Assembly (NCBI GenBank): GCA_036874045.1
Contig: JAZBRI010000003.1
Location: 4,662,501-4,726,500, forward strand
Length of the DNA stretch: 64,000 nucleotides
Direction: 5' to 3'
Source: Cymodocea nodosa
Taxonomy: Eukaryota; Streptophyta; Magnoliopsida; Alismatales; Cymodoceaceae
Shown: positions 6,501-56,600 of the stretch, piece by piece
Layout: every line of letters begins with the position of its first letter
Position numbering within the stretch: position 1 is the stretch's first letter
Notes under the pieces: model-generated
What the model was told of the DNA's origin: nothing
The model's input: the letters and a program-made list of their open reading frames with translations, nothing else
Database searches by the model: none
Program-made: the position numbers and the translations under genes

Positions 6501-6519
6501 GGGGCGAGTGGACTGGCAT
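6493..6519 (-). promoter_or_regulatory. candidate upstream ORF overlapping the LDL1 start codon
   Basis: An ATG at 6519-6517 opens a frame of eight codons (MPVHSPHV) whose TGA (6495-6493) lies inside the first three codons of LDL1: ATGTCTGA contains both the LDL1 ATG and the uORF stop. If the transcript starts upstream of 6519, ribosomes using this ATG would end 3 nt past the main start and would have to reinitiate backward or miss it. Whether the 5' UTR reaches here is not visible. Confidence 0.4.
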
Positions 6520-6540
6520 GGTAACTTCACCCTCCGCCCC

Positions 6541-11621: not shown

Positions 11622-14600
11622 CTACTCAGCGTATGTGATCACATCAAGTGATGAGTTCGCCTTCCACAATTCATTGGGTGCATCCTTCGTTTTCACGGAG
11701 TATTCGTCCAGATGAACGGCAAAATATGAAACAAGTGGAGTTGTTCGGGATTCATCAATAATGAATTTCAGATACTGAGCTTTTACTCTTGGAAAAGACA
11801 ACAATCTTTTGTAGCCCACAGTGGTGCCTACCACTATGGTATACCACTGATCTCCAAGGATGGCATCAAGGTGAAACTTGCTAATTCGCTGTCCCATCTG
11901 AATTGGCTCTTGTATCTGCAACACATTGAATGACAACGGTTTTTGCAAATCCATGTCAATCACCCAAGAAGACTCATGGTCTTCCGGGGCCCAGTAGTTG
12001 TGTATCCCTTCTTCGAAGATGTGAGCTGCACCAAATGAAGGGTTTGTGTGGCCTCCACGGGTGCTGCTTGCAGAAACCGTGGCATCCTGCGCCAAGTTTT
12101 TGGAGAATATGTTCCTTCGCATTTCAGCAAATTCACGTAGCACAAGCAAGTCTTCATCAGATATTAGACCGGAAGAATTAGGGGGAACATTCAGTATCAG
12201 GAAACAGTTCCTCCCAGAAGAATTGTAGTATATGTCAAGAAGCTCAATGGCAGATTTTGGACGTTCATTACTGTGCCAAAACCAGCCTGGTCTGATGGAC
12301 ACATCACATTCTGCAGGTACCCAGTTACGCCCCATTGGATCTCCCATAGTTGAGTATCTATTGCACACAAAGTAAATACACATTTAGCCTTCAGTTCAAC
12401 TCATTTTCATGCCCAATAAATAATGTGACACGTTGAGTTTACATCCTAGCAACTAGTTGGGAAGGCAAAAGTGTCGGCATCCTATAAGATGAACAGACTC
12501 TTCAGAAAAGTCGTTGGAATGACACATATTACTCATGATATATAGACGTTAGATTTGGGTCACGTTCTGAAAAAACTGCGAGCTCAAGTGGCTAATATAC
12601 ATTTATGTGTATAAAATTGAAGTGGCTAATATGGCAAGACATTTGTACTAGTTGCTCATCTTCTTGTTTCTACAAATGGCAAAACTACAAAAAGTACTTT
12701 AAAATCTGTTTGTGATGAAACTTGATATCCACTCAATTATCAATACGGTACAAGGTGCAGCAAGCTTGAAATAGGATTCATAACAAACATCCACATCCCT
12801 ATAAAGGAGGCATATTCATAAACATATATATAAAATTAAGAAAAATAACTAGAACTTTTCTCTGTAATATTGATGAGAATAGATTATTCCGTTTTACATT
12901 TCCTTTTAGAGAGGAGTAGAGGAATATTCTAAAAATAAGTCTATTGTATTCTCATGTGAGGAAGAACTCATCCATGACAAATTGTCTAATTGGAGTAAAG
13001 TGCATCTTTGCAGAAATCAATAGCTAAACAATTTCTCAATAATTTTATTTTCGATGAGGAAAGTAAGCATGAAAGTAGAAACCCCACTTTAGTGACCAGA
13101 CGACCTCAATGATAGCTCCAAGGAAGTCCTAACTGATGCTTCACCTACCACCTGACCCAGTCATTAGATTCCAAACATGAAGACGAAAATTAATAACTCA
13201 ATTCACCCTCAATTTGCACCTAAATTTTTCATTATTATGAAACACCAAGCCCATCAGACCCATAGCCATCACCAACCCACCAACACTTGGGTAATTTTCA
13301 CTAAACATCTCCCTCAGTTGTAATCAAGTGCCTATATTCTACCTTACCATTTAAGACCAAATGATATATAAATGCTCCCAAATCATATTCATTGCACAAA
13401 TAACTATCAAGCTCTCCAATGAACCTAATTTCATGCTAATTTAGCAAGAAATGTCAACCGTGCACACTTGCAAAGCCAGCCTGGCATGGAAATCTCTACA
13501 AGACACACCTAGTTGATTTTTCCAGGCAGCTTGGGCATATGAACATGAGAGATTTCTAGTTGCTGTAGACAATTTAGACTATATGGTGGAATTTCATCCA
13601 CTTGGCTTAATTTCTATTGGTTTATGCTAATTTCAGATATGTGGGAGAGTGATTTTTACCATCATAAATTACCTCTATCATCCTAACCTACATTCAGAGG
13701 GGATTCTACACACCTTGCAGAAATTCCAACCCTCCCTACTGCATTTCTTCTCCTCTAACACAATCCCCACATTCTCCTTTCTACCGCCAACATATGGGTT
13801 CATTCCACCGCCTAATTTGAACCATCACATTTAAATTACTAGAGTTAAGTATTTGTTTGCCAAAAAGTAGATTGAGGAATTTTGTCCATAATATCATCTT
13901 CAGTTACTAAAATGAATCCAAACATATGAAATAGTTTTACGAGATATATTAATAACAAGCTAGTTTAGCCACATGTATATTTTAGTGTATTACTTTTCAA
14001 CCATACGAGAAAAACTTTGAATCCCATTAAAGGATACGCCAAGGGAATGCAGCTATCAGATCAGAGGTGAACACCTTCATGAAACATTATAGGATACTAT
14101 CTCAAAGAATGGAAATGTTTGATGACTCCTGAGCATAATTCACTAGGTTTCCACTTAATATGTCAATGCATCATTAGTCACAACATTTCAAATCTTTTAA
14201 ATTGATTAGATACTAAAATGCCAATAAAATAAGAGAAACTATGACTTTATTTTGGATATCTCCATCATAATATTTGTGCATGCCTATCTAGTTTTTTCAG
14301 GAGACATGTTATCAGGTAATTTAACTAATGCATGAAGACATAACATGAAGTCTGTAAGGAAGAAAACTCACTGGTAGGTTGTGTTGCCTATCATGTCTAT
14401 GCTTCGATTGAAGAGTGACCAGCAGGTGAAGCCAGCGAGCCCTGTCTCATCACCTACCCATCGGCTGTCTGGACCAGAATCAGAGAAAATAATTGCACCC
14501 GGTTGAAGTTGATGAATAAAGTCAAACCAGGACGTAAACAAGTATTCCATATGTGTCTCATTCTTCCCTGGAGCACCATCCAAAAATACCTCCTGAATTT

Positions 14601-15789
14601 CACCATAACTGCCCCCAAAGATGAAACTAATCAGTGATGGACAGCAGGAAGGAGAAAGTGTTGGTAACAAAAACTGGCTTCATAAGGGCTTTTAGATTGT
14701 ATTGTGTTCCAGGTTGCTTCAATTTACTTGACTAGTAAAGTTGCTATGCAACTTCAGAAATGTAGTATTCACTGGTCAATGCACATATAAAGATGCAGGC
14801 AGCTAATCTGTATCAGTTATCAATGCTAAACAGATTCTGAGTTATGAAAGCATTAAAATGCTAATGCCAATCTTGATTATATGATAGAAGTCTAAGAGAT
14901 GTATTACTCACTGCTCAATGCACATATAAAGATGCAGGCAGCTGATCTGTATCAGTCATCAATGCTAAAATATCATTGAGTTATGAAAGCATTAAAATGC
15001 CAATGCTTGTACAATCGATAAAAGTGTAAGAGATGAATTGACATGTTTAAATGGTTCCATATTGGAAATGAGAAGAAAGCTTGTACAATTAATATAACAT
15101 TAGATTTCTTCCCTAATAACCAATTGATTTTAGGTTACAGTTATTCACGTTTCAATACGACAACATCAACACATTTCTCTTACGACATTCCACAAACCAG
15201 CAAAAGAAAACCCAAATCCAACACACCCGGTGAGCAGCTCGGCCATCTGCCCCAAATAGTACTCATTGTACTCCAGCGTCTTCCCATAAGATTTCTCATG
15301 CCGATCCCACGGCGAAAGGTAGACCCCCATCCCAATCCCCGCCTCCTTGACTGCGGCCGCCAGCTCCCCGACCACGTCCCCCGTGCCACCTCTCCACCTG
15401 CTGCTCTTCACGGAGTAGCTGGTGTAGTTGGAGGGCCAAAGGCAGAACCCGTCGTGGTGCTTGGCAGTAAGGACAACCCGCGAGAATCCCGTGTCCACTG
15501 CGGCCCGCACCCACTGGCGGGCGTCGAGGGAGGTCGGGTCGAACAATGACGGGTCGTCGGAGCCCGTGCCCCACTCGGAGTCGGTGAAAGTGTTGATGCC
15601 GAAGTGGAGGAAGAGGGCCATCTCGCCAAGCTGCCATTGGAGCTGGGCGGCGGAGGGGAGGGGCGGGGTGGGGAGGGGTGGGGTGGTATGCAAGTTCCAG
15701 GAAGAGCGGGCGGAGGGAACAAGAGAGGGGAGGACGAGAAAGAGAAGAATTGCGTAGCGGTGGCGGTGACATTCTGATCTGTCAGCCAT
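11622..15789 (-). CDS. FUC1: alpha-L-fucosidase, glycoside hydrolase family 29 (FUC1-like)
   Basis: Secreted or vacuolar hydrolase; the Arabidopsis relative removes alpha-1,3/1,4-linked fucose from N-glycans. Exons are 15227-15789, 14372-14608 and 11622-12357, all phase-consistent, giving 511 residues. A signal peptide (about residues 1-29, core AILLFLVLPSLV) precedes the GH29 barrel with LHFGINTF, AKHHDGFCLW (HHDG at 111-114), LSPWDRHE and EVFLDGA, whose Asp198 is the expected nucleophile. Exon 3 carries WVPAECDVSIRPGWFWH and NVPPNSSGLI, followed by a C-terminal beta-sandwich region (EEGIHNYWAPEDHESSWV). Length matches Arabidopsis FUC1 (about 506). Intron 1 (14609-15226) contains an internal tandem duplication; intron 2 is 2.0 kb. 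The ATG at 15789 is followed at once by the signal peptide. The gene sits inside the UGT array. Confidence 0.93.
14762..15035. repeat. two-unit tandem duplication in fucosidase intron 1
   Basis: Unit 1 is 14762-14900 and unit 2 is 14901-15035, about 139 bp each. Both contain 'gcacatataaagatgcagg', 'aatgctaaa', 'gagttatgaaagcattaaa' and end in 'gtaagagatg' or 'tctaagagatg'. Divergence is modest, so the duplication is fairly recent. Confidence 0.85.
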
Positions 15790-16080
15790 GGTGGTATGCT
15801 ATCAAAAGTGAAGCTGGCCTATGGAATAAATAATAGAAGAAATAAGATAAATAGAAAAAAAAAAATTTCTTTTACTTTTTTATTTCCTTCGAGTGTTTAG
15901 AAAATTTCAAACTCTAATTAAGATTTTTCCAATAAATGAGAATTAACTAAAATGTTTCTGTCGAATATGATAACATTAATGCATAGATTAAAATTTAAAC
16001 AGCAACGTAAGACATGAGTCAAGAAACACACAGAAACAACCAGCACAATATATTATAATAGTGAAAAAAATATGTCTGTC
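15790..16080. other. short intergenic spacer between fucosidase start and UGT pseudogene
   Basis: AT-rich sequence carrying the fucosidase upstream region. No gene seen. It does not match the 3' flanks of UGT copies 1 and 3, so the pseudogene's downstream context differs from the other two copies. Confidence 0.6.
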
Positions 16081-17090
16081 AAAAGCAGCACCGGCTGCAG
16101 AGCTCCTCCCAGTAGAAAGGAAGAAGCCCAAAGCTTTTGACAATCGGCGATGGCCGTGACTCTGGGCCGTCTCCAGTGAGTCGTCCAACGCAGCAAGCGA
16201 AGACCCTCTTTTCACCTTTCCTTCCTCCGTCACCGTCGCCACCACCGCACTCCTCATCACCTCCTTCATCTCCGCCGCCCTCCTCCTCATCTCCTCCCCT
16301 TCTCCCCGCCCATCACCTCCCTCACCGCCGTCTCCACCAACCCAACGTCCACGGCTTCCGCCAAGCCTCTCGCTACCTCCACGCACACCCCCATCTCCTC
16401 CTCGAGCATCTTGACGTTGTAGAACTGCTCCGCCGCCAAGGGCCAGCCAATCATGGGCACGCCTTCGCTCAGACTCTCCAGCACCGAGTTCCATCCGCAA
16501 TGCGTCAGAAAGGCACCCACCGCCTTGTGGCCGAGGATCTCCGGCTGTGGTGCCCAGTTCCTCACCACCAGTCCCCTACCTTGTTCCCTCATCCTCTCGT
16601 CGAATCCCTCCGGCAACCATTCGCTTCTGAACTCGCCTTTCAGATCGAATCCCAATGGTGGTCGGACCACCCAGAGGAAAGAATGATTGCTCCTCTCCAG
16701 CCCCGTCGCCAGACTCAGCATATGCGATGGCGAGATTGTGTTCTGCGAACCGAACGACACGTAAAGCACCGACATCGTCGGGTGGTCGTCGAGCCACTGC
16801 ATGCAGTCCTTAATGCTGATTCCCGTTTCCTTCCCTAGCCGTGGTCTGCCACCACTGCCACACCCTGCGCCCACCGATACGCCGAAGGGCCTCCAATCTG
16901 CTCTTCTCCATCTCCTCCACTGTGTTGCAAAGGAACCCATTCGAATTAAGGACGGACAGCGTGATTTGCTCCTTGAGAAACACTGACCATGAATGGCAGC
17001 AGCACTTTGTGCTCCTTCCGCCGCCGCTGCCGCTCTTCACGTCCCAATCCCATCATGCCCGATGCCTTCGTGACGGTGCGCGTCTCATGA
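16080..17090 (-). pseudogene. UDP-glycosyltransferase pseudogene (array copy 2)
   Basis: Closely related to copies 1 and 3 over the PSPG region (WAPQPEILGHKAVGAFLTHC... at about 16430-16560), but not functional. The N-terminal segment (MMGLGREERQRRRKEHKVLLPFM, 17000-17066) is joined directly to the region starting VFLKEQITLSVL, so roughly 200 residues of the acceptor domain are missing. A second small loss removes the WPVGPLVLGGG linker. Near GGEKG the reading frame shifts, so the C-terminal part continues in another frame with an altered tail. Identity to the intact copies remains high, so decay is recent. No function is expected. Confidence 0.9.
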
Positions 17091-19945: not shown

Positions 19946-20510
19946 TTTTTGTATTTTTATTATATTTTCGCATTTGAATAATTCTATTTAAATAATTTTT
20001 TAAAATTTCAATTATGTATTAAAATTTAATTATTAAAAATTTATGATTTATTATAACTTTAATAATATTCATATTATAATTTATGTTAATAATTGAAAAC
20101 TTAAATTTTATAATTTTCTTACCTTAAAATTTTAATTCTCTAACTTTCTATTTTTAATATTTTTTAATTTTTTATTTCTTATCTTTTTTGACCTTTTGTT
20201 TACTAATTTTCTACACTTTTCAACGATGATACACAAATAGACCCTTATTGATCAAATTTTAATTTGAATCTTCATGACATAAAATTTTAATATTATATTT
20301 TTTCCATGAAATATAATTCATTGATTACAAAATCAAGTTATTTTATGACATTTTTAGGTTTTTTAATTCCTATATATATTATTAATTAAGATTAAAGTGT
20401 AGTTGAAACAGATATCAGCAATGACAATTGAAAGTAATACGTCTGTCAAAAGCAGGACCGGTTCCAGAGCTCCTTCCGGTAGACGAGAAAAGGAACAAGT
20501 CCAAAGCTTT

Positions 20511-22034
20511 TCAACTCGGAGGCGTGAAGGACGATCGGCGATTGCCGTGACTCCGGGCCGTCTCCAGTAAGTCGTCCAACGCAGTAAGCGAAGACCCTCT
20601 CTTCACCTTTCCTTCTTCCGTCACCGTCGCCACCACCGCACTCCTCATCACCTCCTTCATCTCCGCCGCCCTCCTCCTCATCTCCGTCCCCTTCTCCCCG
20701 CCCATCACCTCCCTCACCACCGTCTCCACCAACCCAACGTCCACGGCTTCCGCCAAGCCTCTCGCTACCTCCACGCACACCCCCATCTCCTCCTCGAGCA
20801 TCTTGACGTTGTAGAACTGCTCCGCTGCCAAGGGCCAGCCAATCATGGGCACGCCTTCGCTCAGACTCTCCAGCACCGAGTTCCATCCGCAATGCGTCAG
20901 AAAGGCACCCACCGCCTTGTGGCCGAGGATCTCCGGCTGTGGTGCCCAGTTCCTCACCACCAGTCCCCTACCTTGTTCCCTCATCCTCTCCTCGAATCCC
21001 TCCGGCAACCATTCGCTTCTGAACTCGCCTTTCAGATCGAATCCCAATGGTGGTCGGACCACCCAGAGGAAAGAATGATTGCTCCTCTCCAGCCCCGTCG
21101 CCAGACTCAGCATTTGGGATGGCGTGATTGTGTTCTGCGAACCGAACGACACGTAAAGCACCGACATCGTCGGGTGGTCGTCCAGCCACTGCATGCAGTC
21201 CTTAATGCTGATTCCCGCTTCCTTCCCTAGTCGTGGTCTGCCACCACCGCCACCAAGCAACAAAGGTCCCACCGGCCACACCCTGCGCCCGCTGATACGC
21301 TGAAGGACCTCCAATCCGTTCTTCTCCATCTCCTCCACCGTGTTGCAAAGGATCCCATTCGAGTTAAGGACGGACAGCGTGACTTGCTCCTTGAGAAACA
21401 CCGACCAGGGATCCTTCCCGTCGGCGCTTTTCATTTGCTCCGACATCTGGTTCCGCCGTATCCGGTACGTCTCCGGGAAACCTGGCAACCCGAAGTCTTC
21501 GTCTTCTTTCTTGTTGAGATGGGGCAGGTGGAGCCAGAGCGAGTAGTAGGCGGCGAAGCCGAAGGCGCCACAGGTGGGGAATGTGGCGTGGAAGACGCCG
21601 TGCTCCCTGGCGACGTCGACGGCCCACCCGAAGAAGAAGTCGGCGATGATGCAGAACGGGGGGCAACCATCATGGGTGACGATGTCGGAGATGAGGCCAT
21701 CGAAGTGAGGGCGGAGGGAGCGTGATGCCTGGAAGAGATACACGATGAAATGGTAGGGGAGGGAATCAGTGTTCTCGGCGCCGGGAGGGAGGCCGTGGTC
21801 GGGGCCGTGGAAGGGTAGGACCTTGAAGTTGAAGGCGGTGGTGGGGGGGAGGGACGACCGTAGGATGTCGACGTTCACTGGCGTGTTGACGATGGTGAAG
21901 GTGAATTCACCGGGCCGTGTCTCCTCGATGAACTTCACCAGGGCAAGGAAGGCTGAGAAGTGGCCTTGCGCCATGAATGGCAGCAGCACTATGTGCTCCT
22001 TCCGCCGCCGCTCTTCACATCCCAATCCCATCAT
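20511..22034 (-). CDS. UDP-glycosyltransferase, UGT92-like (array copy 3, intact)
   Basis: Near-identical paralogue of copy 1: 507 residues from the aligned Met at 22034, single exon, with the His in FMAQGH, the Asp in IIADFFFGW and a complete 44-residue PSPG box ending in Gln. Differences from copy 1 are scattered and mostly conservative (for example PMIGWP for PMLGWP in the PSPG box). Unlike copy 1, an extra in-frame ATG lies upstream at 22082, in good context (ttcATGG). If used, it would add 16 residues (MAFKSHETRT...). Because that segment matches noncoding 5' flank in copy 1 with an indel, I prefer 22034 as the ancestral start. Both intact copies are probably functional; the acceptor is unknown. 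Confidence 0.9.
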   Translation of the reverse strand: MMGLGCEERRRKEHIVLLPFMAQGHFSAFLALVKFIEETRPGEFTFTIVNTPVNVDILRSSLPPTTAFNFKVLPFHGPDHGLPPGAENTDSLPYHFIVYLFQASRSLRPHFDGLISDIVTHDGCPPFCIIADFFFGWAVDVAREHGVFHATFPTCGAFGFAAYYSLWLHLPHLNKKEDEDFGLPGFPETYRIRRNQMSEQMKSADGKDPWSVFLKEQVTLSVLNSNGILCNTVEEMEKNGLEVLQRISGRRVWPVGPLLLGGGGGRPRLGKEAGISIKDCMQWLDDHPTMSVLYVSFGSQNTITPSQMLSLATGLERSNHSFLWVVRPPLGFDLKGEFRSEWLPEGFEERMREQGRGLVVRNWAPQPEILGHKAVGAFLTHCGWNSVLESLSEGVPMIGWPLAAEQFYNVKMLEEEMGVCVEVARGLAEAVDVGLVETVVREVMGGEKGTEMRRRAAEMKEVMRSAVVATVTEEGKVKRGSSLTALDDLLETARSHGNRRSSFTPPS

Positions 22035-37357: not shown

Positions 37358-40300
37358 TTAACCTGACATGAGTTTCGGTCCATTGTCGGGCATTCCCATT
37401 CCACCAGCCAGGTCAGCGTCTAGCTGGGTATGTGGTGCAGGTCCGTTCATTAGCTTAACTCTACACAGAAAAAGCACGATATTGGAATACAATCGATCTT
37501 CTTGAAATCAAAATCTGACAAAGAATATTGCCATTCCAAAATTCAAACTATAGACGAGAACACGGGTCAGTAACTTCGTTACGAACTGTGGCAAGTACCA
37601 GTTGATTTTACCAGTGACTGAATGGTTTCGGAAAAAAAAATATAAAACCTGATCCACACTACATATTTATGTGTTCAGTGAAGATTGGAAGGAAATTTAA
37701 TCACGTAGGGTTAGAATGCGATGAAGAAACACAAATTAACTTGTACAAAAAAAGAAAAAATAGTTTCATAATTAATCAGAGCCAACAGAGATCTACATCT
37801 AATGACACAAAAAAGCACTCTTAAAATTTCGGGTATGTTTTGATTCCTTCCCAATTTCCCTTGACTTTGAGGTAAAATAATAAACACCAACAAATATCTA
37901 TTCAAATCTATCCCAAAGAAAAATGCAAGATACCTCAACTGGCCACAAACAAAACAATCATCACATTAAATTTACATATGCAGCAATCTACCAGAAAATG
38001 TTTTTTTTTTCCTTTTTTTAATGAGCATAATGGAAATATCATAAAATGAGGAAAATACGGGGCCTACACAAGCTAAAGAAAATAAAACATGAAAACGATT
38101 GAACTTCAGAGAGAGAACCCCAAGAAAAGGAAAAGATACAAACGCAAAAACAATATGAAAGAAGAGAAACTAACACATGAACAGCAACAAACAACTGCCC
38201 ACCACAGTCACAATGTAAGAAGCATCTCAAGCCAAGGTGCAAATAACCCTACATCCAACATCAACACACCATTGCCCCAAGCACCCGTCCATTCAACAAC
38301 ACATTCCATCACCTCAGGCATGAATTTATCATCATGATAGATGATTCAAAAGATCCTGTTCCTCTCCCGCCATCTCCACCAGATAACAATGGGAATTGTG
38401 CACCATAGTTTTCTTCTCAACTTGTCTGAACCTCCCTTATCCACCCAGTTCTCCCAAAATTCTCACATTGGAAGGGCATGCAAACAATAAATACCACTGA
38501 TCTTTGCCATGAGCTCCACAAAACGTACATAAGCTTTGCCAAAGAATGTCCCTTTCTTTGAAGCAAATTCTCTGTTGGAATGCCTCCATGCCACAATTGT
38601 CATTCAAAGAACTGAGAACCTTTATAGAAATCCAACTCCTCCATGGGTAGGTTAATTCCCTGCATTTGACTCCACTGTATGTCAACACCTGGTTAAGTGA
38701 CTTAAATGGGAAACTCTATTGGCACTCCATTACCAAACTTGGGAAGGATTCTTTGCAATGACAAGAGAGCTGAGTATGAAGAAAAGACAAGAACTGAATT
38801 ATGGCTGATGATTGTGTTACTCAGATCCCTTCAAACATTTCGTACTATCCCTACCCGACATCCCTTAGTACACTCAAGCTACACTCATCTAGCTATAAGA
38901 TGCAACAAAAAATGACACTAGGAACTCGAGGCTAAGGAACCACCCCCACCCCACCCCCAACTGATAAAAAAACTTCAAGTATTCACCCTAAAATTGATCC
39001 CTCTCCCATTTCCAACTACTAATCTCACCTTGCATCTAACGTTTGCCTCAAGAATACATATTGCTAAAGACTTGTCAAAGTTAAACAGGCTTAAAAAGTA
39101 TTGAAGATATTCAATCAATTTTTGGCTAGCATCATAGAATATAATTGTGTCCATTAACACCTCATATTTTTCACATTTTACCAAAATCTATTCTCTGACA
39201 AAGACACTATTCATATTTCCACATTTGGTGCCTCATCCATTGGACATTCGACATTCACTGCCTACATCGACAATTTACTTCAGTTATTTGATGCATCTTC
39301 ATTGAACATTCAATGCCTCATCCACTAGGCATCTGACATTCACTTCTTGCGTTAGCAATTCACTGTTCATTTATCTGAATCTTCACCAAACATCTAGTGT
39401 CTCATCCACCAAACATCCAACATTTGCTGCTCACATCAATAGTTCATTGTTCATTTGTCTGGTGCATTTTCACCAAACATCCAGGTAAAATACTTTGAAG
39501 AAAATTATAAGGAAACTAGAGAATCCAAACAAGTTCATCAAAGGTTACTGTTAACAATTGAATAATCCAGATAAAACAACTAGAGATTATTGTGGCTGGA
39601 TAAGACATTATCATAGATAAGGAAACAACTTTAACAACATTAGCCAACCAATCAACACTATTCATTTGTCTGGCACCTAACGACTGAACCGCCAAACACC
39701 TAATGCCCAAACTTGACACTACCTGCAGTTAAACTGATATTCTTTTTAGTTAGATTGAAAACAAGATTTTCAGTCAAACCAAAACAGAGACAAGGATGAG
39801 AGTTTTAATTATTTGTTTAGTGTTTGACCACTGGACATCTAGTGCTTGTTTATCAAACTTGTCCAGTGCCCAACCATTGAACAATTGATGCCCATACATC
39901 GAACACTAGAGAACACATCCATATGTGTTAGTTGCCCTTCATTTCATTTGTTCAATGCCTAATTATTGGACATCCAATGTCTGCTAACCAAACATTGTGG
40001 CCTTACACTTTTTCCTGCATCTTCTTTTAAAAAAGAGAGTGGGCTTCAAGACCCTTCAAAGATTATTGCACATATGTCCAAACACTCATTGATGGTGAGG
40101 AACCAACAAACTATCCTAGGTGACTTTACAAAGAAAAGAAACTCAAGGCTATCCCAAGAAAAGAACCTTTGAGAGGGTTCTGTGATCAACCAAATCACTG
40201 ATAAAGTTCGACAATCAAAGGTGTAGGTGAGGTGGCTGTAGGTTGTTGCCAATATTTATGTAGAAATAGCAACCACAAGGTACAACTAGAAGCATGAGCC

Positions 40301-43300
40301 ATCAGCCATCAGTTTCAAATGACCCTCAGCTGACTCCCTTATAAAAAGGGATTGAGAACCTCCCACACACACAAATAGCAAACTTTGGCAATTTCGGCTC
40401 CCTAGCAACCTTGCTCTCCAAATCCTCAAGCATCCAACGAACTTCCAGGAACTTTGAGGAATACCCACTTCAACCTGTGACTTTGAGCTCAAGTATTGAG
40501 CACTGTCAATGACCTTAATAAACCAAAAATAACCTAAATAAAGAACTTCCAAGGGGTTAACATAAATCCTTGCTACCCTCATATTCTAAATGATGGCAGA
40601 ACCTTTCTTCAATGGTCATCACTTTTGTTTTCCAAACTTTCTTATTGCTGTTTATCTTCAATGTCATTTACTTTATCATTTTGTTCATCTTTCTGTTATG
40701 ATTTTGAACATTGATTTGACCCACTGACTCACTTTCTCTCTAGACGAATCCCTACAAAGTTTGTTTTCTTCACATCGCTTTGTTTTATCATTTGGATTCC
40801 TTTACCTTCTTGGCCAAGATTCACCATCGAATGATTCTACTTGGCAGATTTCTGTTCTTTGGGCATTGCTTTATGGTCTTCATCGAAGTTTCTTCATGGT
40901 CTGATCTAGATTTCATCCCTAGCATCTGTTTCTCTATCTGTGTCATCACAGATTTTTGATTTTTCGATCATCATTACACTATTTTGTTAATTTTATTTAC
41001 TCTTCAGTTTTGGTTTATTGATTGCATTTAGATTTTTATCATTTAGTTCTTTTCCTTTTCAGCTCTGCTTTACTGCTTTACCAATGTTCCTTTAATCTTA
41101 GTTTGCACTCATCACTGATTTGCTTCCCTCCACATGACTCCTTGTAAGTCTCTATTTTTGCCTTACTTTACTATTTCATTTTGATTTCTTACAACTAATT
41201 GGAGATCGTTATCATTGTCACTATTTCCCCTACATAAATCCTTACAGGTCTCTGTTTTTCAACTTTACTAAATCACTCGATCTTGATTTCTTGAGATTCT
41301 ATTTAACTTTTATCATTGGTTTAGTTTCAAAGGAACTTTTGGATGTCTCTTTTTGTTTTCCTATAACACATTCTGTCTGCTTCTTCTCATTTAGCTAGCA
41401 TTTCTATCAACTTTTCATTTAGCTATTATTCACTTTTGGTGCTGAAAATTTAAGATGAATATGAATCCATACAAACAGTTAGGAGGCGACTTCAGAATAC
41501 TTACCCAAGAATCTCTATGTTATCCTACCCTTTTCTTCATTTTCTAGCCGAAGGATTTTGTTTTCTTCACTCTCCTTTGGTTTTTCTGTTTTTCTCCCAA
41601 AGAACAAGTGTTGACTCCATCTTTTCCATCTCTTCTCTTTTCCCAACCTATAAAGTCCCAATTCACTCTATAACGAAGTCCAATGTTAGAGTGTCATCTG
41701 CATATTAAAGGTGTGTAACACTTGGAATTGCACCTCACATGCAAAAACCTTTGATCAAAACATTTGATTCCTCTTTATAATACATCCAATCAAACACATT
41801 TACAACCAATGAGAATAAGGAAAGAGTTAAGGATCTTCTCAAAGTCATCTACCACACCTAAACTCACTTGTAGGATAGTCGTTAATCAAAACCAACAAAG
41901 ATGTTAAACTAACATAGTATCTGATCAAATACTGTCATTTGGTGAATTGGTGTTGAACCACATGCAAAACATCACTTGCTCTAGACAACCATATGATGCA
42001 CTATCATATTCCTTTACCATATCTAGTTTCCACTAGTGGTTTTAGAACCAAACCAAGAACTGACAACCTTGACAATTTGCAAGGTCAATGTTGGATCGTT
42101 TTGGGCATTGAGTTGGTTGACCTGATGACAAAATGGCTCGACCAATTGATTTGGGTTCAGCAAGTACTAGTTTTTCAAATGGATCCATACTTGTTTGAAG
42201 ACCTTATCTTAAAAGCAAAACCCTTCTTCACCCATGAGTCCATGATGACTGCAAAAACATCCTCTAATAAGGGTGCCCACCATTGTTGCGCATCACAACC
42301 ATCAATGCCACTAAATGCCTTCATTGTTGCCAATAAGGACCACAATTGTTGTTGCTTTGTCAGATCCACCATTGACATTTCTCATGTGTGCTCTTTAACC
42401 AAGTTCCTTTATATATATATATATTTTTTTTTAACATTTACAATGTAGTTTTTAGTTAGATTCCTAAAAATAAAACATGTTATATGTGAATCAATGATAA
42501 ATGTTATTAAAATTAATTCAAAATTCTAGATAAAATGAAAGACAATACCATGTTAATTCCTTATTTATCATGTATTTCATTGAAATATGTTAGTGTCTCA
42601 ATTTTTAAAATTTATCTTTCATAATTTATAGTAATTGTAAGATATATTGCTATTTATTTTGATTCTAAGTATTTAAAAGTCTTATTTTTATGAATTTCAT
42701 GAGCATCTAATTGTGTACCTTTATCATTATTCTTATTTTTGTTAAACATGCACTCCATATATTCAATTTTGACCCTCTCAATCTAAATTCTTTGAATTCT
42801 AAAGCATCCATCCATATTTCTAATTTAGAACCAATTTCGACCTTACTTTCATCAACCAATACTATCATTAGCAAATAACATATGCCAAAGGCATTTTACC
42901 TTGAATTTTCTCAATTATTTCATCTATAGCTAAGACAAATAGATATGGATTTAGAGAGGACCTTTGCTGTAAACCTATGTCTACTAGAAATTCTTTAATT
43001 TCCCCTTCTATGGTTTTGACACTAATAAATGCTCCTTTATAATATCAATATATCCTACAATTACTCTTTTAATTACCAATACCCACTACAACAGATTTCT
43101 AGGTATTCTTTATAAGCTTTCTCTAAATCAATAAAAACCACATGGACGTTCTTTTTTAACTCTAAAATTTTCTATTAGTTATCCAAATAAATGAATAGCT
43201 TCCATTGTGAACCTACCCAAAATGATTTTTTGTGATTACATGCTTTATTCTTTTTTAATTACCTTATTCCATAGTTTCATATTATGATTTCATAATTTAT

Positions 43301-45540
43301 CTTATTGATTTAATGGAAATTTTTCTTAAAATTTATTTCAAAATTCTAAGTAGAATAAAGATGGCAAAAATGATGATATCATGATTTATGAACATTGTTA
43401 TCTTAATGACTAGCCATCTTCATGAATGTGAATGCCCTAATTTTTTTCAATTTTTCTTATTTTTTATTGATTTATAATTAATATTAAATTAACTAATTAT
43501 TATTCTTTTCAATAAAAATTCATTTCAATATTGATTTATATGTAATATCTAACCCCATGTTCAATAAAATTTCTTTAGAGTACTATAAGAGCTTTGCTTG
43601 TGGATGACATCCTAGCACATAATTGGTGTCAGGCTGAAGAGCCATAAAACTTATCAAACCAAAATCAACACATACTAGAGAAAGGATTCATGCTGTCTAT
43701 GACATAAAGGCATTACCGTTGTGTAAAGGCATTGCTTCACATGACATAAAGGCATTACTATTATGACATAGTGGGACTAAAGGCATTACCATTGTCATGT
43801 AAAAGAATACTCTAAGCCGCCATTCAAGTATTGCTTCCTTCAAACAATCTTTTTGATATTATACTAGAACTACAAAGTGTTCGGAAGAAACTGAAACACA
43901 CAACTAGATTACATTCAAACCATTTGTTTCAATTAATTGCATACCAAACACAGAATTTCAATGGCAATCAATTTAATTGAAGTTAAGACTTTAAAGACTA
44001 GGAAACCAGGTCCATAAGATCTTAAATGACATGGACTTTTTGTACTGCATTCAACCTTTAGATCAATGACAGCAGGTCTTAACCAAATTCCAAACAAAAG
44101 ACTCCAAAAAAGATTGAAGGAGAAGAAATGGATCCCTTCCATTGTTTTCAAAATCTATTCTTGTGAACCTAGAGATAGTCCTAAAATGGGAAGCTTATTA
44201 GAATACAAATTGAAGAAAGACCTCAAGGAACATAGGAATCTAAGGAAGATGATTTAGAGCACTTAAAAGAAGAAATCTTTACTTTTGGACTTGACTTATC
44301 TTGTCTGTAAAAGCATCACTTCTTATCATAGTTGTTAAGACAGGGGCGGCCCCTAGGCACCCAAGCATATTTTGGGAAATGCCTAGGTACACCCAACACC
44401 TTGTAGGACTTCACTGAATCTTTGTTGGATACAATTAGAAATCCAAGAAAGATCTAATACTGGATAGGGCACTTTTAATGTTTTCTAACAGAGATCTCGA
44501 TATTTTAGTGTCATTAGATTTTCAATATCTTATTTTATTACAGTGTATTGATTTTCAATATCTTATTTTGTCATAGTTAACTTACATGTTCTGAGTTTTA
44601 AATATCATATTGTTGTGCTTGTTGTTTACACATTTTTGTAAGTTAGTTTACAGTATTTATTTATGCATTTTTTATTATTAATATACATAAAAATATGAAA
44701 ATAACTACACATATACATATAGTAAAATAAAAAATGCATATAATTATAGGTGCCTAGGCACCCAAGGCATCCAAGGATACCAATTGGGCCTTAATAACCT
44801 TGCTTCTTATTATCATTGTGTCGCATTGTTATTTTATTTGTGATGCACGTAAAAACTAAAAGTGCAAAAGGTCTTTCTAACAAGTAATTCTAATCAACAA
44901 ATGATCCAATTTAAGCAGTAACAAGGGACGAGAAAAAGGATAGATATATCCACTAAAATATTAAGTACACGGTAGTTTGTAAAAGAAAAAGACCGTTTCT
45001 TATGCAGCTTCGTTCGAAAATGATCTTCCCTCACAGCGTCGTTGGCGAAATAGCGACTGCGAGATCATAAAACAAACACGAACCGTAAAAAAACCAAAAA
45101 TATCATAATAGCAAGAGGAAACTATTATTCCAAAAAAAAATATATTTTATCAAGGAAAACAGAAGACCGGTGAACGAATATACGGAGAACATTTGCGACT
45201 GAAACTCACTCGCAGTGCAAGCAGTAGAACTGGCCCATCCCGGGCAGATCCTCGTCGAACGGGAACGCCTTGGCCTCCTTTCCCCGGGCCGCCTCCTCCG
45301 CGGCCTTCAGAAGCTCGCCGTATACAGCATCGTCACGTGGTCTCCGACGTGATCAAGGAGACGCAAATTGTGTGCCGTCTAGAGCGGGCTTTGAAATTTG
45401 TACACACGAAGAACTCGAAAAGCAAGCATAAAAGAAGGAGTAGCAAAAAGGATATCTTTGAGTTCAAATTTGCTGCGGCGGGCAGTTTTGTGGGAGAACT
45501 TGCGTTTTTTCGACTTCCTGTGCGGGCATTTACCTCCCAT
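37358..45540 (-). CDS. ZNF593/Bud20-like C2H2 zinc-finger protein
   Basis: Small nuclear/nucleolar zinc-finger protein; yeast Bud20 is a pre-60S export factor. Exons: 45456-45540, 45210-45336, 44994-45056 and 37358-37460, giving 125 residues. The N-terminus MGGKCPHRKSKKRKFSHKTA is strongly basic. DEDLPGMGQFYCLHC leads into a single U1-type C2H2 finger (C-x2-C-x12-H-x5-H: CLHC ... DH FRTKLH) split between exons 2 and 3. The tail, HKKRVKLMNGPAPHTQLDAD followed by GMGMPDNGPKLMS, is the family's conserved C-terminus. Intron 1 (119 nt) has AT-AC ends and joins as FELK|GDDAVY, matching the family. Intron 3 is 7.5 kb, holds transposon remnants and has a weak donor (CG|GTCTTT). The family is recalled from plant orthologues; exon joins preserve phase throughout. 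Confidence 0.9.
38340..38700 (-). mobile_element. LINE fragment (3' end of ORF2, zinc-knuckle region)
   Basis: On the minus strand the frame 38437-38688 reads ...KVLSSLNDNCGMEAFQQRIC... CTFCGAHGKDQWYLLFAC. This has the shape of the Cys/His zinc finger that follows reverse transcriptase in plant L1-type LINEs. In another frame just beyond, IVIWWRWRERNRIF matches the usual ORF2 tail. The frame changes between the two parts, and the upstream reverse transcriptase is absent. Confidence 0.65.
39200..40000. repeat. degenerate short-motif repeat region
   Basis: About 800 bp in which variants of 'ggacatccaatgcctcatcc', 'caccaaacatcc' and 'ttcatttgtctggtgc' recur many times at irregular spacing on one strand. 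This resembles LTR-internal sequence of some plant retroelements, but no protein remnant accompanies it. Confidence 0.55.
40130..40600. repeat. possible fossil LTR-like stretch
   Basis: A TATA-like TTATAAAAAGGG at 40339-40350 sits in less AT-rich sequence, following the motif-repeat region. It could be the promoter part of an old LTR. No primer-binding site or paired copy was found; family not assigned. Confidence 0.25.
40690..41340. repeat. degenerate tandem repeat, about 105-bp period
   Basis: Three recognisable units at about 40735, 41120 and 41225 share 'cctacataaatccttacagg' or variants, 'tctctgtttttc', 'tttgatttctt' and 'cttttatcattgg'. The last two are adjacent and about 105 bp apart. 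Confidence 0.55.
42560..43190 (-). mobile_element. RTE-clade LINE fragment (reverse transcriptase, C-terminal part)
   Basis: The minus-strand translation contains VVFIDLEKAYKEYLEI (the FIDLEKAYD motif), then GLQQRSSLNPYLFVLAIDEI, then MLFANDSI.LVDESKVEIGSKLEIWMDALE, in the order of RTE-type reverse transcriptase. The FADD box reads FAND, and stops and frame changes interrupt the sequence, so it is dead. The 5' part of the element and its 3' tail were not delimited. Confidence 0.75.
43690..43800. repeat. short tandem repeat
   Basis: Four variants of 'gacataaaggcattacc' within about 110 bp. Confidence 0.7.
44327..44802. mobile_element. non-autonomous hAT-type element with 8-bp target-site duplication
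   Basis: 476 bp flanked on both sides by CTTCTTAT (44319-44326 and 44803-44810). Terminal inverted repeats are CATAGTTGTTAAGAC (left) and, read in reverse from the right, CAAGGTTATTAAGGC, 11 of 15 matching. Subterminal 'cctaggcaccc' phrases occur at both ends in inverted form. No transposase is present. The 8-bp duplication is the hAT hallmark. Confidence 0.8.
45337..45455 (-). other. probable U12-type AT-AC intron
   Basis: The first intron of the zinc-finger gene begins ATATCCTTTTT at 45455, matching the U12 5' splice-site consensus. It ends CCAC at 45337. TCCTTGAT at 45359-45352 matches the U12 branch consensus TCCTTRAY, with the branch adenosine (45353) 16 nt from the intron end. No GT donor fits the reading frame here, while removing this segment restores the conserved K-G-D-D-x-V-Y junction. 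Confidence 0.82.
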
Positions 45541-47207
45541 TTCTACTCCTCTCCGGCAACGACGATGATTCTGGGAAACAAAGCGAGATCGCGAGCTCTT
45601 AAACCCTAATTTGAGGTATGGGCCGTCCGGCTCCAGTAGGGGATGGACCTTGGGATTTTTTACAGCGTTTCCAATTGGGATGAAAATGGTATTTTTTATT
45701 TTTCTAGCAGATGTATTAAAATAATTTAAAAACGCCAGCACAACATTTTATTGATTACACAGATCCTAACGTATCTAAAGATGTATAATGATAAAAAAAA
45801 TAACGAAAAATAAAAGTTCTTTAAAAAATTAATTTTAAAAAATATACCTGGTTAGCGTAGAAGAAATCAATCACCATGCTGTCTTCTTTAACTTCGAATT
45901 CGGCATTCTATATGTTGAGGGTAAAGTTTTGAATATCAGAATTATCCAATTGTTATAGAAAGTTCATAAAATTATTGATGAAAATTTTGATATGTACTAT
46001 AATTTCAATATCTTCTTAGCCTCCTTTTATTTATTAATTTCCTGTACATCCTAAATCTCAATTCCCTAACAACAGGTTATCAACACATAGAGGTTTTCTC
46101 AGATACTCATTAACCATATATTATTAAGTTTTCTTTGTAAAATAATAGAAAGAATATATCTAAAAAAATTATCTCATTACTTACAATAATAAAACTTTTA
46201 ACAACTCTGCCACCATTTTTTTTAGAAAAATAGATAACTAATAATGTGTTGCAGAGTCAAATGTTCAAATTACACGTTCACGTGCAGCAGCACCGCCACG
46301 TCGCCACGTCGGACAAATTTTTTTTATTAAAAGATATAAGAATCTTGAATCACTCCTTCCAAACAGTCGACCGCCCAACAACATTCTGGTCGCGTGCCAA
46401 ATTTGTCCCTCGGCTACGAACGTAGATTTGGAATTCGGACTTCCGTTTTTGACTTTTCGCCCTTTTTTTATTATCATTAAACTGTAATAAAATAAGTTTT
46501 TTTGAATCATGAAGGAAAATTGAATCGTCCTTTTGTCTACCACCGACTCTAACATCTGAACATGGATAGAGTTTGATCCAGAAAGATCGGATCTTTTATC
46601 CAATAGAATAAAAAATTATCCTTTTCAACGAGTTGTGTATTACCAAAATTGCAAAAAGATTGATTATAAAAAAAAACCGTATTTTATTGTTGATCAAGCT
46701 ATTTTGGTTCGTTCAAGTTTGGCACGGTTCAATCATTTAACGTTAAATTTATATTTATTTAGATTATTCAAAGAAAAAAATCAGTCATCGATTTGGACCA
46801 TATTGCAACCCTGCTGGTGGTGGGCTTCTATCGTGGTGGGGCCTACCACCACATACATCGTCATCACTTACCATCCCACGATAATCCATCAAAATCTGTA
46901 TATTTTAGTAGTAATGAGAAATTTTTATTATATTATTTACGTACATTTACTTGAATTTATTATTATCTTAATAAAAAAAATCCATCAACATCTCTGTACG
47001 ATCCCATCCGCGTCCATACGCACGAAACAGGGAGGGAAGAAGGTGAAGAGAAGCAGCACACCTCCTCTTTCAAATCCACGACACTTGTTCGACGCGCGTT
47101 CCATTGCCTCTCGGCGCCTATTTATTCCCGCGCCAACACCGCACCCCAAACCGCAGCGGAGGAAGAAGACCGACGGAGGGACACGAGGGAGCGAGACGCC
47201 GTGCGCC
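45541..47207. other. divergent promoter region between zinc-finger and HIPP genes
   Basis: The two genes are transcribed away from each other. AT-rich in the middle. A minus-strand open frame (46265-46603, 112 residues) has no recognisable domain. The last roughly 200 bases are GC-rich and are likely HIPP 5' UTR. Confidence 0.55.
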
Positions 47208-47590
47208 ATGGGAGAGGTAAGGTGTAGAAGGGGCTCCGGCGGACGGCTTTTGCTTTTTTGTTTCTTTTTTGACCGGTTGTGATCATCATCGATGCGTTCT
47301 TGCACTGTAGCCGTCTGCTCACGGGATTAACTTGATTTCTCGGTGCAGAAGGGAGCGAAAAGCGACGATGGGGGGAAGAAGAAGTCGAAGAAGGTGGAGG
47401 GTGGGGCTAAGGATGGTGGGGAAGTGGAGAAGAGCAAGAAGGATTCCAGCGGCGGTGGGAATGGAGCCGTCACTGCCGTGCTCAAGGTCGACATGCATTG
47501 CGAGGGCTGCGCCAGGAAAGTTAGGCGCTCCGTCTACGGGTTCCAAGGTAAAACACCACTTGTTTCGAGTCTCTTCTTCTTCTTCTTCTT

Positions 47591-47627
<37 letters not shown>

Positions 47628-49974
47628 ATAGGAACGATTTTCCATAGGAGTTTCAAGATTTTTTTTTGTCCTTTAGGGCTCCGATTAGAGTATGTATGTT
47701 TTACCAGAACGTAAGAAATTAGGGATTGCAATTGTGATTTTTTCTCTGTCAACGACGACGACCATCACCATGGTCGACGTGGTTCCAGCGGTTGCTTTTA
47801 CCGGTACAAGCTGAAACTCTGTTTGACTGTTTTCTCCCGTGGAGCACGATAGTCCGACCCTATCAAGAAACTATCCGTCTGGGATTCCTTCCCTGCTCAT
47901 CTTCTGATATTTCAGGTGTGGAGACTGTGGCTGTTGACAGCAACAACCACATACTGACGGTGGTGGGGAAGATGGATCCGTGGAACCTCCGGGAGAGGGT
48001 GGAGGTCAAAACCCACAAAAAGGTCGTCCTTGTATCTCCCACCGATCCTCCCAAGAAGGAAAAGGAAGTTCCGAAGAAGGAGGACAAGGTTGTCGAGAAA
48101 CCCAAAGAGGTAATTGCACGAAAAGCCTTGACCTGCCCTGCTCAAAGTTTTGGGAGTTCCCCTTCTTGGTCTTCCATTAATTACACCATCGGGTGTTGAT
48201 TCTCTTCTTCTTCTTCTGTTTCCGTGGACAGGCTGTTGTTTCAACCGTTGTGTTCAAGATTCAGCTGCATTGCGAGGGGTGCATCCAGAAGATTCGGAGG
48301 TCCATCTTCAAAGTCAAGGGTGAGTTCCTCTTTTTACGATTCGTTCTTAATTACGCATCTAGTTCTCGGATACAAGTAGGCAATACTTGTGCTTTATACT
48401 AGTTTGGCATGTGAGAAGTAATGCTTTTTTACGATAATGATAGTGTTTTTTGCGTCAAACCCTGCACTAGTATTGGTTAAACGCGAATAAGTTTGAAAGA
48501 AGGTTGGAATCTGAATTTTAGTAAAAATACAATCATTATCAAAAAAAAAAGAGAACACTTTACCAATAAAAAAGCTTCATCCTCAAAAAGGTTTCATAAA
48601 TTTGCAAAAAAGAAAGTTGCTTCGTTGACTGTCTGGTGTTAAATTAGACGTCATCCACTGATCGACCTTTGCATATTTGAAGCTTTTTTTTGCTGCAAGG
48701 TGGATATTCGTGGTTTCTGAAAAGATCATGAAAAGGAAGAAAGTTTTGAATTCGATTTCCTTAAATTAATTGGGGCAACAGCTAGGTATTAGACTCTATC
48801 ATAAAAAGAAACAAATATAAACAAAAACTCGGACGAATCGTAATCAGCAGGACACTTTGGAGTGTGTTCTTGGGAATTGGGACTGCTTTTCTGCGAAGGC
48901 TTTAAGCAAGCTTTTATCGTCTCCATCTTATTCGCCGGTGGCTGCTGGTACAACGACCTTTTATTTACTTTTTTTGTCCGTGGGTTGGTGTACCCCTGCC
49001 CACATCATGACATTTCACCTTTTTTTTATTATTATTGTTGGTTTCTGGATGTTTATTTCGAGTCAGTAGTTGAACTTTATTAATTGACGACATACGATTG
49101 TGTACGAAGATATCTTGGAAATTTCTCCGTATCCTTCGAGTTCAAATTGTTTGGAATTCAGAGTTTGAATTGGTTGGTTGGTTGGTTGGTTGCACATTTT
49201 GTCTTCGAGAGATTCTCTTCATTAAGGTCTGACATTTAAAAAGGGTCTGACATTTCTCTGATGCATGGCTCTCCCTTTAAAAGCAGTTTAAAAGTGTATT
49301 TTATATGCTGGAGGTAGCCAGTTACATTAAATGTTTCGTGTGTATATATATATTATCATACGGAAAACATTTACCGATTCATATGATTGTTTCAATCAGG
49401 TGGTTGTCGTGTACGCTCATTACCATAATGATGAAATATATAGTTTCTTTCTGTCATCGAAGAAAGACCAGGCATAAAACAATATATTTAGCTGAACTGA
49501 TTACGGAATGTTTTCACCATTGCAGGAGTTGAAGAGGTGAAGATCGATACCCCCAAGGATCTCGTCGCCGTGAAGGGGACAATGGATGTGAAAACTATGG
49601 TGCCGTTTCTAGCCGATAGACTTAAGCGCAAGATCGAGATCGTCCCGGCGAAGAAGGATGAAGGCGGAGAGAAGGAAGAAAAAGAGAAGGACAAAGAAAA
49701 AGAAAAGGACAAAGGGAAGAAAGAGGAAAAGAAGGAATCTGCTGAGAAGGAAGAAAAAGGAGAGGGTGGTGGCGGAGAAAAGAAGAAAGGCGACGGTGGA
49801 AAGAAGGAAGACGGTGAAGCCAAACCGGAGGTGAACAAGATGGACTACTACAGTGGCGGTGGTGCTGCTGCCGGTGGATACGTGTCTCACGGATACAATT
49901 ACCACCCGATACAGCTGCTCCATGCACCTCAGTACTTCAGCGATGAAAACCCCAATGCTTGCTCTGTCATGTGA
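47208..49974 (+). CDS. heavy-metal-associated isoprenylated plant protein (HIPP), two HMA domains
   Basis: Metallochaperone-type protein, membrane-anchored by C-terminal farnesylation. Exons: 47208-47216 (only MGE), 47349-47547, 47916-48109, 48232-48319 and 49526-49974, all GT-AG and phase-consistent, giving 312 residues. A Lys-rich N-terminus precedes HMA domain 1 with MHCEGC (52-57). HMA domain 2 has LHCEGC (146-151). A long Lys/Glu-rich linker (EKEEKEKDKEKEKDKGKKEE) and a Gly-rich YYSGGGAAAGGYVSH segment lead to the CaaX box CSVM (309-312). Both CxxC metal-binding pairs are intact. Two HMA domains plus CaaX place it with the two-domain HIPP cluster. The first exon of nine bases makes the start easy to miss; its ATG has the strong context gccATGGG. 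Confidence 0.93.
47567..47626. repeat. (TCT)n(CTA)n microsatellite in HIPP intron 2
   Basis: Compound trinucleotide repeat starting about 20 bases after the donor of intron 2 (GT at 47548-47549). The frame stays open through it, so an unspliced transcript would add a run of Phe and Tyr residues. Confidence 0.9.
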
Positions 49975-53653: not shown

Positions 53654-56600
53654 TCATGTTCCATCTTTCCCACGTAAACGTTCCAGAAGATGTGCAGCCT
53701 TCCGCTTCGCACGTTCTGTACCAATATCGCACAAGTCCTGCAATGCTTCTTCTGTTCCGCATTCTTTTGCAATCTTAACTTGCTCTTCATCGTCAGTGCA
53801 AAGAGATGATAAAATGGCTACCGAATATTCCCTATTACGTGAAGATCCTGTTTTCAACAGCCCTGCCAATATTGGGATGGGATTGAAAACCACAATAGCA
53901 GGCTTACCCTCCTGATGAGTTGCAAGAAGTTCCAACACTGCAAGTGCCTCATCCACCATTCCTCCATTAGGATCCGTTAACATATTCATCAAATGCTCCA
54001 CTATTCCAGCTTTCACAGCTCTCGATTTGTTTTCTGCAGATATCGCCAGGTGGAAAATTGCTGTCACCGCATCCTTTTTACCCCTTGGACTTCCATGACA
54101 AAGTAAGTCTATGAGAACAGGTACAGCCCCAGCTTCTCCTATCTTTGCTTTATAGGAATCTATAAAAGACAAACTAAATAGAGCAGCAGCAGCATTCTCT
54201 CTTGCTTCCATACTTCCATTCTTCAATACCTGTACTATCTTGGGTATGGCAAAAGCACTAACTATGAGTTTTTTATTGTAATCGTTTATGGACAAGTTGA
54301 GCAGTGCAGTTACAGCATGTTCCTGAGTTCTTGAATCACTTGATGACAAACAATCTACAAGTAAGGGAACAGCTCCAGCTTCTGCAATGCAAACCCTGTT
54401 ATCTGCATTCCTCTTTGCCAGCAACCGGAGGTGGCCAGCAGTTGCCCTTTGTTCTTCAATATTTCCACGCTTCAATTTTTGAAGTAACAAGTTGATGCTT
54501 GCTCGATCACAGTCAGATTTGGATTTAGATGAATCCTTGCCTTCGAAATCTGCTTGTTGTTTGGGAACCTCAAGACCATTACTCTCACACCATTGTGCAA
54601 TTAGACTCTTCAAAGCATAGTTTGGTGTGAGAGAAGAATGAGATAGTTGTTGTTGGGTCTTGGGACAAGTCCTGTGTCCAGAATTTAGCCATTTTTGAAT
54701 GCTTGATCTGTCATATGTCTAGGGAAAGATAAAACAATATTAGTTGAGCGAAATTTGAAGTCAAAGCTTATTCAAAGGGAACAATTTATAACCTGCCCCG
54801 TGGAGACAATAACCGGGTCTTTCATTAGTTCAAGAGTCATTGGACAGCGAAAATCATCTGGAATAACAGGCGACCTGAGTTTCGATACATCGGTATTTGT
54901 TTCAAGGACATTAGTGTTGTGATCTGCCATCAGGAAAAAATCTTCTAATTTTTTGAGCACCACAGAATTTTCAGTTTCTCCACAGTTTCCATTGGTCTTT
55001 CTACTTAGTGCACTTTTCTCTCTCTCAAAATCATTGTGTGTCTTGAGACCAAGCTTCTCAGAAAGCTTTCTGAGAATTGTATGATCCATGGTCTTTCCAG
55101 TACGGACTGTATCAAGATCTTGAGAAAGTTGTATATCAGGAGGATCAATTATCCATTTTGCTCTTTTGAACTGGCCATAAATGAGCTCTACCTGAAAAAT
55201 TTTGCTGGGACATCTTACACATACTAATGGCAAAAGGTTACATTAAGTAGATGATAAACTTTTAAACATGGGCAACTATAAGCGTAAGAATAAAAGAACT
55301 ACATATAGCACATGCTTGGAAGTTTTGGGTCCCTTGTGCTATAAATCACATGGCATAAACCGACATCTTTATATTGAGGGGCTAGGCTTCAGGCTTCTTC
55401 CACATACAATTTTCTTAGTTTACATGACAATATCTAAAACTATTATTCTCTCGTGATATCTATCATTATTCTCATTGTTTATTTCATAAGTTTATGATTC
55501 TCCCTTAAAAACGTGAGATTTTTGTGTAGTCATCTCTGTTTTTATTTTCAAATCTCCCTAAATCATATGATCGAATCCTAGAAAATCTTCACGATTCTGT
55601 TGCCCCATTTGCCAATGACTTCACTATACACCATAACTTTGAATTGATATGGGATTCTTTTCAATTGGAACTGTGTAATCAGGCATGATTCTTGAGTTCA
55701 TAAAAACATAATGCTTGGATGTTAAAACCTTTAATTTTAGTTTTCATGGCATGAATATAAAAGATCTGACAAAAATACAAGTCCATACGTGCAATTTGAT
55801 TATGAAGTTCTTGTTACATGATAGCCAAACTAATACAACTTAAGAATAAAAGGATGGTTCATCAAAGTTATGGAAGTTACTAACCTTCATTGAATGGCTT
55901 ACCCTTTCATTCTCAAAAAGACTTATCAATTTTAGACATGTAGTGGTGAACTACTAATTCTGAAACCTGAGGAAAAACAATACGTATATTTTAAATCAAT
56001 TATTCTAGCTCATTATCTAGTCAACTAAAGGAAGATAACCAATATCGGATGATTTTCAAATCCAACATCAGTACCTCCACCTCCACTATTTTTTATTAAG
56101 AGGACTGACAAAAGGGCAGAAGGCCATGACTGACAATCCTCTCTCAATATGGAGTGTTTGTCAGGGCAAGATAACCTCTAACAGTGATTCCAAACGTCTA
56201 ATAGTCTACATTTATTTTTTGAAAAAATCATGCATAATCATGATCCCGCACGGAAGGAGACAATATTTGAAATGGTTGCTGAGTGGTCCTCAACTTCATA
56301 TCAATCTGCATTAACACATGCAGTCATTAGCATGTGGCTGGAGACCTTAGATTGCATTTGTAACTATGATTTCATCACAGTTTTTACACAAAGGCACTTT
56401 TCTGAAATGCATTTCCGAATACACCCAGAAGATTTCATTTTTTCGGAAACATGGTTTCTAGATTTTAGTTCTAAATTCAATGATTTTCAAAAAGTTGGTG
56501 AGAATCCATTCATGGAAAACCGTACAAATATTGTCCCACCTTTATAAGGTTGTCCTTGTATCTTTTGTACTTACACAAAAATTGCAAATGGTACAACCTT

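Follow-up and report, generated by a model that had tools for sequence, protein, structure and literature searches.

Intron 4 of plant CBP20 has AT-AC ends, a ATATCCTT donor and a TCCTTRAY branch site close to its end, and the U12 introns of CBP20 lack a pyrimidine tract and range from 76 to 284 nt in length (PMC5932401). U12 introns are found mainly in information-processing genes (PMC3584512). More than 200 minor introns have been catalogued in Arabidopsis, where EXOSC5 has a U12 intron (PMC2831892), and AT-AC introns account for 26% of the U12-type introns of Arabidopsis and 22% of those of rice (PMC7367187), and for about 0.06% of plant introns (PMC6310983).

Leaving aside how close the branch site is to the end, which depends on the AC used, the features of the CBP20 introns listed above are shared by the first intron of a BUD20 gene in the window (the whole 64,000-nt stretch of Cymodocea nodosa DNA that was analysed), which at 119 nt also falls within the CBP20 size range. 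The intron differs from its CBP20 counterparts in its host gene and its position there (BUD20, intron 1), in having G and not A at the upstream branch-site purine, and in an AT content of 55%, lower than the approximately 65% of the CBP20 U12 introns (PMC5932401). For a minor intron, a host gene of RNA or ribosome metabolism is typical and nothing unusual in kind; the BUD20 intron is very probably a fresh example of the well-known AT-AC class, and knowledge of minor introns would be unchanged by it.

In PMC12332008, AT2G36930 is named BUD20 as the Arabidopsis homologue of yeast Bud20, and its product is described as mainly nucleolar, as shuttling between nucleus and cytosol, as binding pre-60S particles, and as staying on pre-60S particles in the cytosol once the OPENER complex has been lost. 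The present locus is likened to AT2G36930 by this reported homology to Bud20. The passages of literature on AT2G36930 that were covered, those of PMC12332008 included, contained no mention of a U12 intron.

The BUD20/ZNF593 gene is oriented on the minus strand with its ATG at 45540, and it is very probably an intact four-exon gene with a U12-type AT-AC intron 1 at 45455-45337. The initial annotation had placed this intron at 45337-45455, with coordinates and counts which proved exact, and had left the minus strand unstated. The layout of the gene is as follows.

45456-45540, minus strand: exon 1 (coding part), MGGKCPHRKSKKRKFSHKTARRSKFELK plus the first base of the next codon
45337-45455, minus strand: intron 1, 119 nt, phase 1, AT-AC, very probably U12-type
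45210-45336, minus strand: exon 2, GDDAVYGELLKAAEEAARGKEAKAFPFDEDLPGMGQFYCLHC plus GA of D; stops at the U2 donor GTGAGT
45057-45209, minus strand: intron 2, 153 nt, U2-type GT-AG (GTGAGT ... TCGCAG)
44994-45056, minus strand: exon 3, (D)RYFANDAVREDHFRTKLHKK plus CG of R; the C2H2 finger is completed here
37461-44993, minus strand: intron 3, 7533 nt, U2-type GT-AG; donor weak (GTCTTTTT), acceptor good (TTTTTCTGTGTAG)
37359-37460, minus strand: exon 4 (coding end), (R)VKLMNGPAPHTQLDADLAGGMGMPDNGPKLMSG plus stop; 7.5 kb away

When joined, the four exons encode a complete protein of 125 amino acids (MGGKCPHRKSKKRKFSHKTARRSKFELKGDDAVYGELLKAAEEAARGKEAKAFPFDEDLPGMGQFYCLHCDRYFANDAVREDHFRTKLHKKRVKLMNGPAPHTQLDADLAGGMGMPDNGPKLMSG), and all four are open and conserved across about 8 kb, the far last exon included. 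Exon 4 was located with a query modelled on plant relatives, the matched letters being the window's own, and the tail it encodes can be aligned with human ZNF593 and yeast Bud20 as well. Scored with an approximate U2 matrix built from textbook frequencies (the source of all splice-site percentiles given here), the splice sites of intron 2 were at the 91st (donor) and 98th (acceptor) percentile and those of intron 3 at the 77th and 96th. The intron 3 donor at 44993 (ACG/GTCTTTTT) was set by homology and frame; this weak U2 site precedes a 7.5-kb intron, and could be due to a base error, a poor site or relaxed constraint. For intron 3, an alternative donor near its start, the U12-like CTATCCTTTTT at about 44948, was rejected, as its use would give a stop at the exon 4 junction (judged by eye). 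The first coding bases, ATGGGAG/GTAAATG, look like one of the strongest U2 donors of the window at 45533 (minus strand; 99.6th percentile); among the AG acceptors tested with it, none leaves exon 2 in frame.

The assembled protein matched the solved structures of human ZNF593 (7e-13) and yeast Bud20 (1.6e-12), and the Pfam family PF12171, zf-C2H2_jaz (8.6e-10). A single C2H2 finger with flanking conserved blocks is present, the same arrangement as in the yeast and human proteins, and the N-terminal SHKTARR... was aligned to AHSLARQ... of human ZNF593. Judged by these sequence matches, the gene is a BUD20/ZNF593 homologue, and the earlier proposal of a ZNF593/Bud20-like gene is upheld by both the ZNF593/Bud20 matches and the zf-C2H2_jaz finger. 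No plant or algal relatives were found when viral and prokaryotic contigs and plasmid and phage records were searched by protein and by profile. The predicted product would consist of a basic N-terminus, one C2H2 finger of the dsRNA-binding type and a conserved C-terminal tail, and by analogy with its relatives it would act in late pre-60S ribosome assembly in this plant.

The candidate signals of intron 1 are listed below.

45447-45455, minus strand: U12-type 5' splice site ATATCCTTT, 9/9 to the consensus ATATCCTT(T) (PMC2831892)
45352-45360, minus strand: U12-type branch site CTCCTTGAT, 8/9 to the consensus TTCCTTRAY (PMC5932401)
45337-45342, minus strand: 3' splice site region GACCAC, with ACs ending at 45337 (CAC) and 45340 (GAC) and an AG ending at 45342

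Exon 1 has its last base at 45456, after ...CTCAAAG, and the intron opens with ATATCCTTTTTGCT and closes with GTCTCCTTGATCACGTCGGAGACCAC, coding sequence being picked up again at 45336 with GTGACGATGCTG. Its start (ATATCCTTTTT) matches the U12 donor at 9/9 positions, one of just 2 sites to do so among the about 12,000 AT sites on both strands of the window. The motif TCCTTGAT at 45359-45352 (minus strand) puts the predicted branch A at 45353, exactly 16 nt ahead of the final base of the intron, and branch-site matches of at least 8/9 occur at 0.065% of window positions. The last 30 nt (TTGCGTCTCCTTGATCACGTCGGAGACCAC) show no pyrimidine tract downstream of the branch site, in contrast to introns 2 and 3, where the acceptors are of the ordinary U2 kind and the tracts are rich in T. 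The terminus is GACCAC (an AC end), and removal of the intron gives ...FELK-GDDAVY... with the frame restored in phase 1.

The full AT-AC pattern (donor, branch site, CAC and suitable spacing) was found once in the window and in 0/200 simulated windows of the same dinucleotide content, and a looser pattern, [AG]TATCCTT...TCCTTRAY...YA[CG], which also admits GT donors and AG ends, was found once against 0.105 expected; both patterns were composed after the sequence had been seen, and the counts are thus a guide and not a blind test. Minor introns follow the phase order 1 > 2 > 0, and their 5' bias is significant in 39% of surveyed streptophyte species compared to 2% of animals (PMC10639083); the phase 1, 5'-proximal intron 1 agrees with these published plant biases. 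With nearly every DNA-testable feature present, and only the branch-to-3' spacing less clear-cut, the reading of intron 1 as U12-type AT-AC, first put forward in the initial annotation, is supported by its sequence: the signals ascribed there to the minor spliceosome were recovered (donor 9/9, branch site 8/9, CCAC end), the distance of 16 nt from the branch adenosine to the end was exact (A at 45353), and the FELK-GDDAVY junction left on removal of 119 nt was reproduced. Around the branch site, GTCTCC...GGAGAC at 45339-45361 (minus strand) could form a 6-bp hairpin which spans two decoy 3' sites. Folding of the intron 1 RNA showed nothing unusual (z 0.49), and the hairpin is therefore probably due to chance.

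The exact 3' end of intron 1 is uncertain, because two in-frame ACs lie 3 nt apart, and mixed use of both is possible. A pyrimidine before the AC is favoured at U12 3' sites, and the AC at 45337 was preferred because a pyrimidine precedes it. The KGDD or KADD of plant proteins at the junction between exons 1 and 2 also favours 45337 over 45340, as a lead and not a test. Measured from the branch A, the AG at 45342 lies at 11 nt (out of frame), and the ACs at 45340 and 45337 at 13 nt and 16 nt (both in frame). The optimum for this distance is 11-13 nt (PMC3584512); the preferred AC is beyond it, while the AG and the other AC are inside it. Use of the AG at 45342 was rejected, as the frame would be shifted and AT-AG pairs are disfavoured (PMC3584512). 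We regard it as unlikely that the intron is U12-type with AC 45340 as its main 3' site (...FELK-ARDDAVY, one residue more), or with both ACs in use: this AC is in frame, as is 45337, it is within the optimal distance and its product scores about equally against relatives, but it is preceded by G (GAC), where the CAC at 45337 fits the pyrimidine preference, and the KGDD or KADD of plant proteins points away from it.

A second alternative is an intron of the major class. The initial annotation had claimed that no GT donor restores the frame after exon 1, which was wrong: enumeration gave three in-frame GT-AG pairs, with donors at 45514, 45499 and 45403, each paired with the AG at 45342, and these choices either delete or enlarge the N-terminal part of the protein. 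As frame alone leaves these alternatives, the case for AT-AC rests on splice-site quality. On the approximate matrix, the three donors were at the 26th, 52nd and 23rd percentile, respectively, and the AG at the 38th, no better than random sites in the window.

The probability that intron 1 is a major-spliceosome GT-AG intron, most plausibly 45499-45342 (158 nt), and that its U12-like motifs are a coincidence, is judged to be very small. Such an intron maintains the frame, and its product (MGGKCPHRKSKKRK-PRDDAVYG...) has a basic stretch right before the DDAVY block, as in the human and yeast proteins. This product reached 57.6 bits against human ZNF593 and 54.8 against yeast Bud20, whereas the AT-AC product reached 52.2 and 51.0; the difference stems from the likeness of KKRKPRDD to KAKRRRPDLD and KTKRRTRDLD. 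The gain, however, arises from that short basic stretch, and the product loses SHKTARRSK, which is aligned to human AHSLARQMK and partly to a fungal relative. Among all GTs in the window its donor (CAA/GTTCTC) ranks at the 52nd percentile, and among all AGs its acceptor (GTCGGAG), which has no pyrimidine tract, ranks at the 38th; the complete set of U12 signals is left unexplained. Scoring the alternative splice products against solved relatives gave no discrimination in favour of AT-AC; between the AT-AC and GT-AG readings it is the splice signals that decide, and not distant homology.

Two short elements were found upstream of the ATG.

45601-45609, plus strand: telo box AAACCCTAA, 60 nt upstream of the ATG
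45619-45624, plus strand: site II motif TGGGCC, 9 nt past the telo box and 78 nt upstream of the ATG

An association of telo box and site II has been reported for most rRNA-processing genes in Arabidopsis and rice (PMC3022908). The whole window has 4 copies of the telo box and 36 of site II, and the pair is supporting evidence only because neither motif alone is rare there. That the gene has become a decaying copy in which correct splicing of the intron has been lost, as the weak intron 3 donor (GTCTTTTT, 77th percentile) and the 7.5-kb length of intron 3 might suggest, is highly improbable given four exons open and conserved over about 8 kb and the presence of both upstream elements.

In splicing by the minor spliceosome, the donor and branch site are recognised jointly by U11 and U12, after which U6atac displaces U11 from the donor and exon joining follows. 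We infer from the sequence that the U12 site of intron 1 is used; the donor sequence ATATCCTTT would base-pair with U11 and the branch-site sequence TCCTTGAT with U12, U6atac would take over the donor from U11, and this donor would be attacked by the branch A (45353), the exons being joined at the AC ending at 45337 to give the 125-residue protein. If intron 1 is retained, a stop is reached after 53 residues, ahead of the zinc finger, and the amount of protein should therefore follow minor-spliceosome activity. BUD20 may on this basis be under the control of the minor spliceosome and of inefficient splicing. U12 splicing in plants is promoted when the upstream branch-site purine is an A and when the intron is AT-rich (PMC5932401). 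Since the G at this position and the 55% AT of intron 1 are features tied to weak U12 splicing, noticeable, measurable retention of the intron is predicted by analogy. It is more speculative, and unlikely, that slow, limiting splicing of intron 1 tunes BUD20 output and late 60S assembly, with the two ACs giving two N-terminal variants.

Several other genes were seen in the window. Three copies of UDP-glycosyltransferase-type sequence (7420-8181, 16139-16594 and 20225-20986, within larger minus-strand genes) are 94-99% identical over blocks of 160-300 nt, which suggests that they arose by duplication, or underwent gene conversion, in recent times; the middle one, with its shorter open frames, may be broken. 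A gene with SWIRM and amine oxidase domains at 2577-6575 (minus strand) resembles an LSD1-type histone demethylase, and alpha-L-fucosidase exons lie at 11625-15798 (minus strand), with a weak C-terminal F5/8 type C-like match below the Pfam cut-off. The exons at 47331-49971 (plus strand) look like those of a heavy-metal-associated (HIPP-like) protein; they contain MHCEGCARKVRRSV and a stretch rich in lysine and glutamate, and adjoin a simple repeat near 47600. No Pfam domain was found in the open reading frame at 49501-49971. A U-box and armadillo-repeat (PUB-type) E3 ligase gene occupies 53657-55242 (minus strand), the Pfam match covering 53657-54718.

With the U12-type reading of intron 1, a pre-60S assembly factor gains a clear candidate for a minor intron. 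The N-terminal part of the BUD20 gene would probably be mis-annotated by standard GT-AG gene finders, and the candidate intron could help to explain the growth defects of plant minor-spliceosome mutants.
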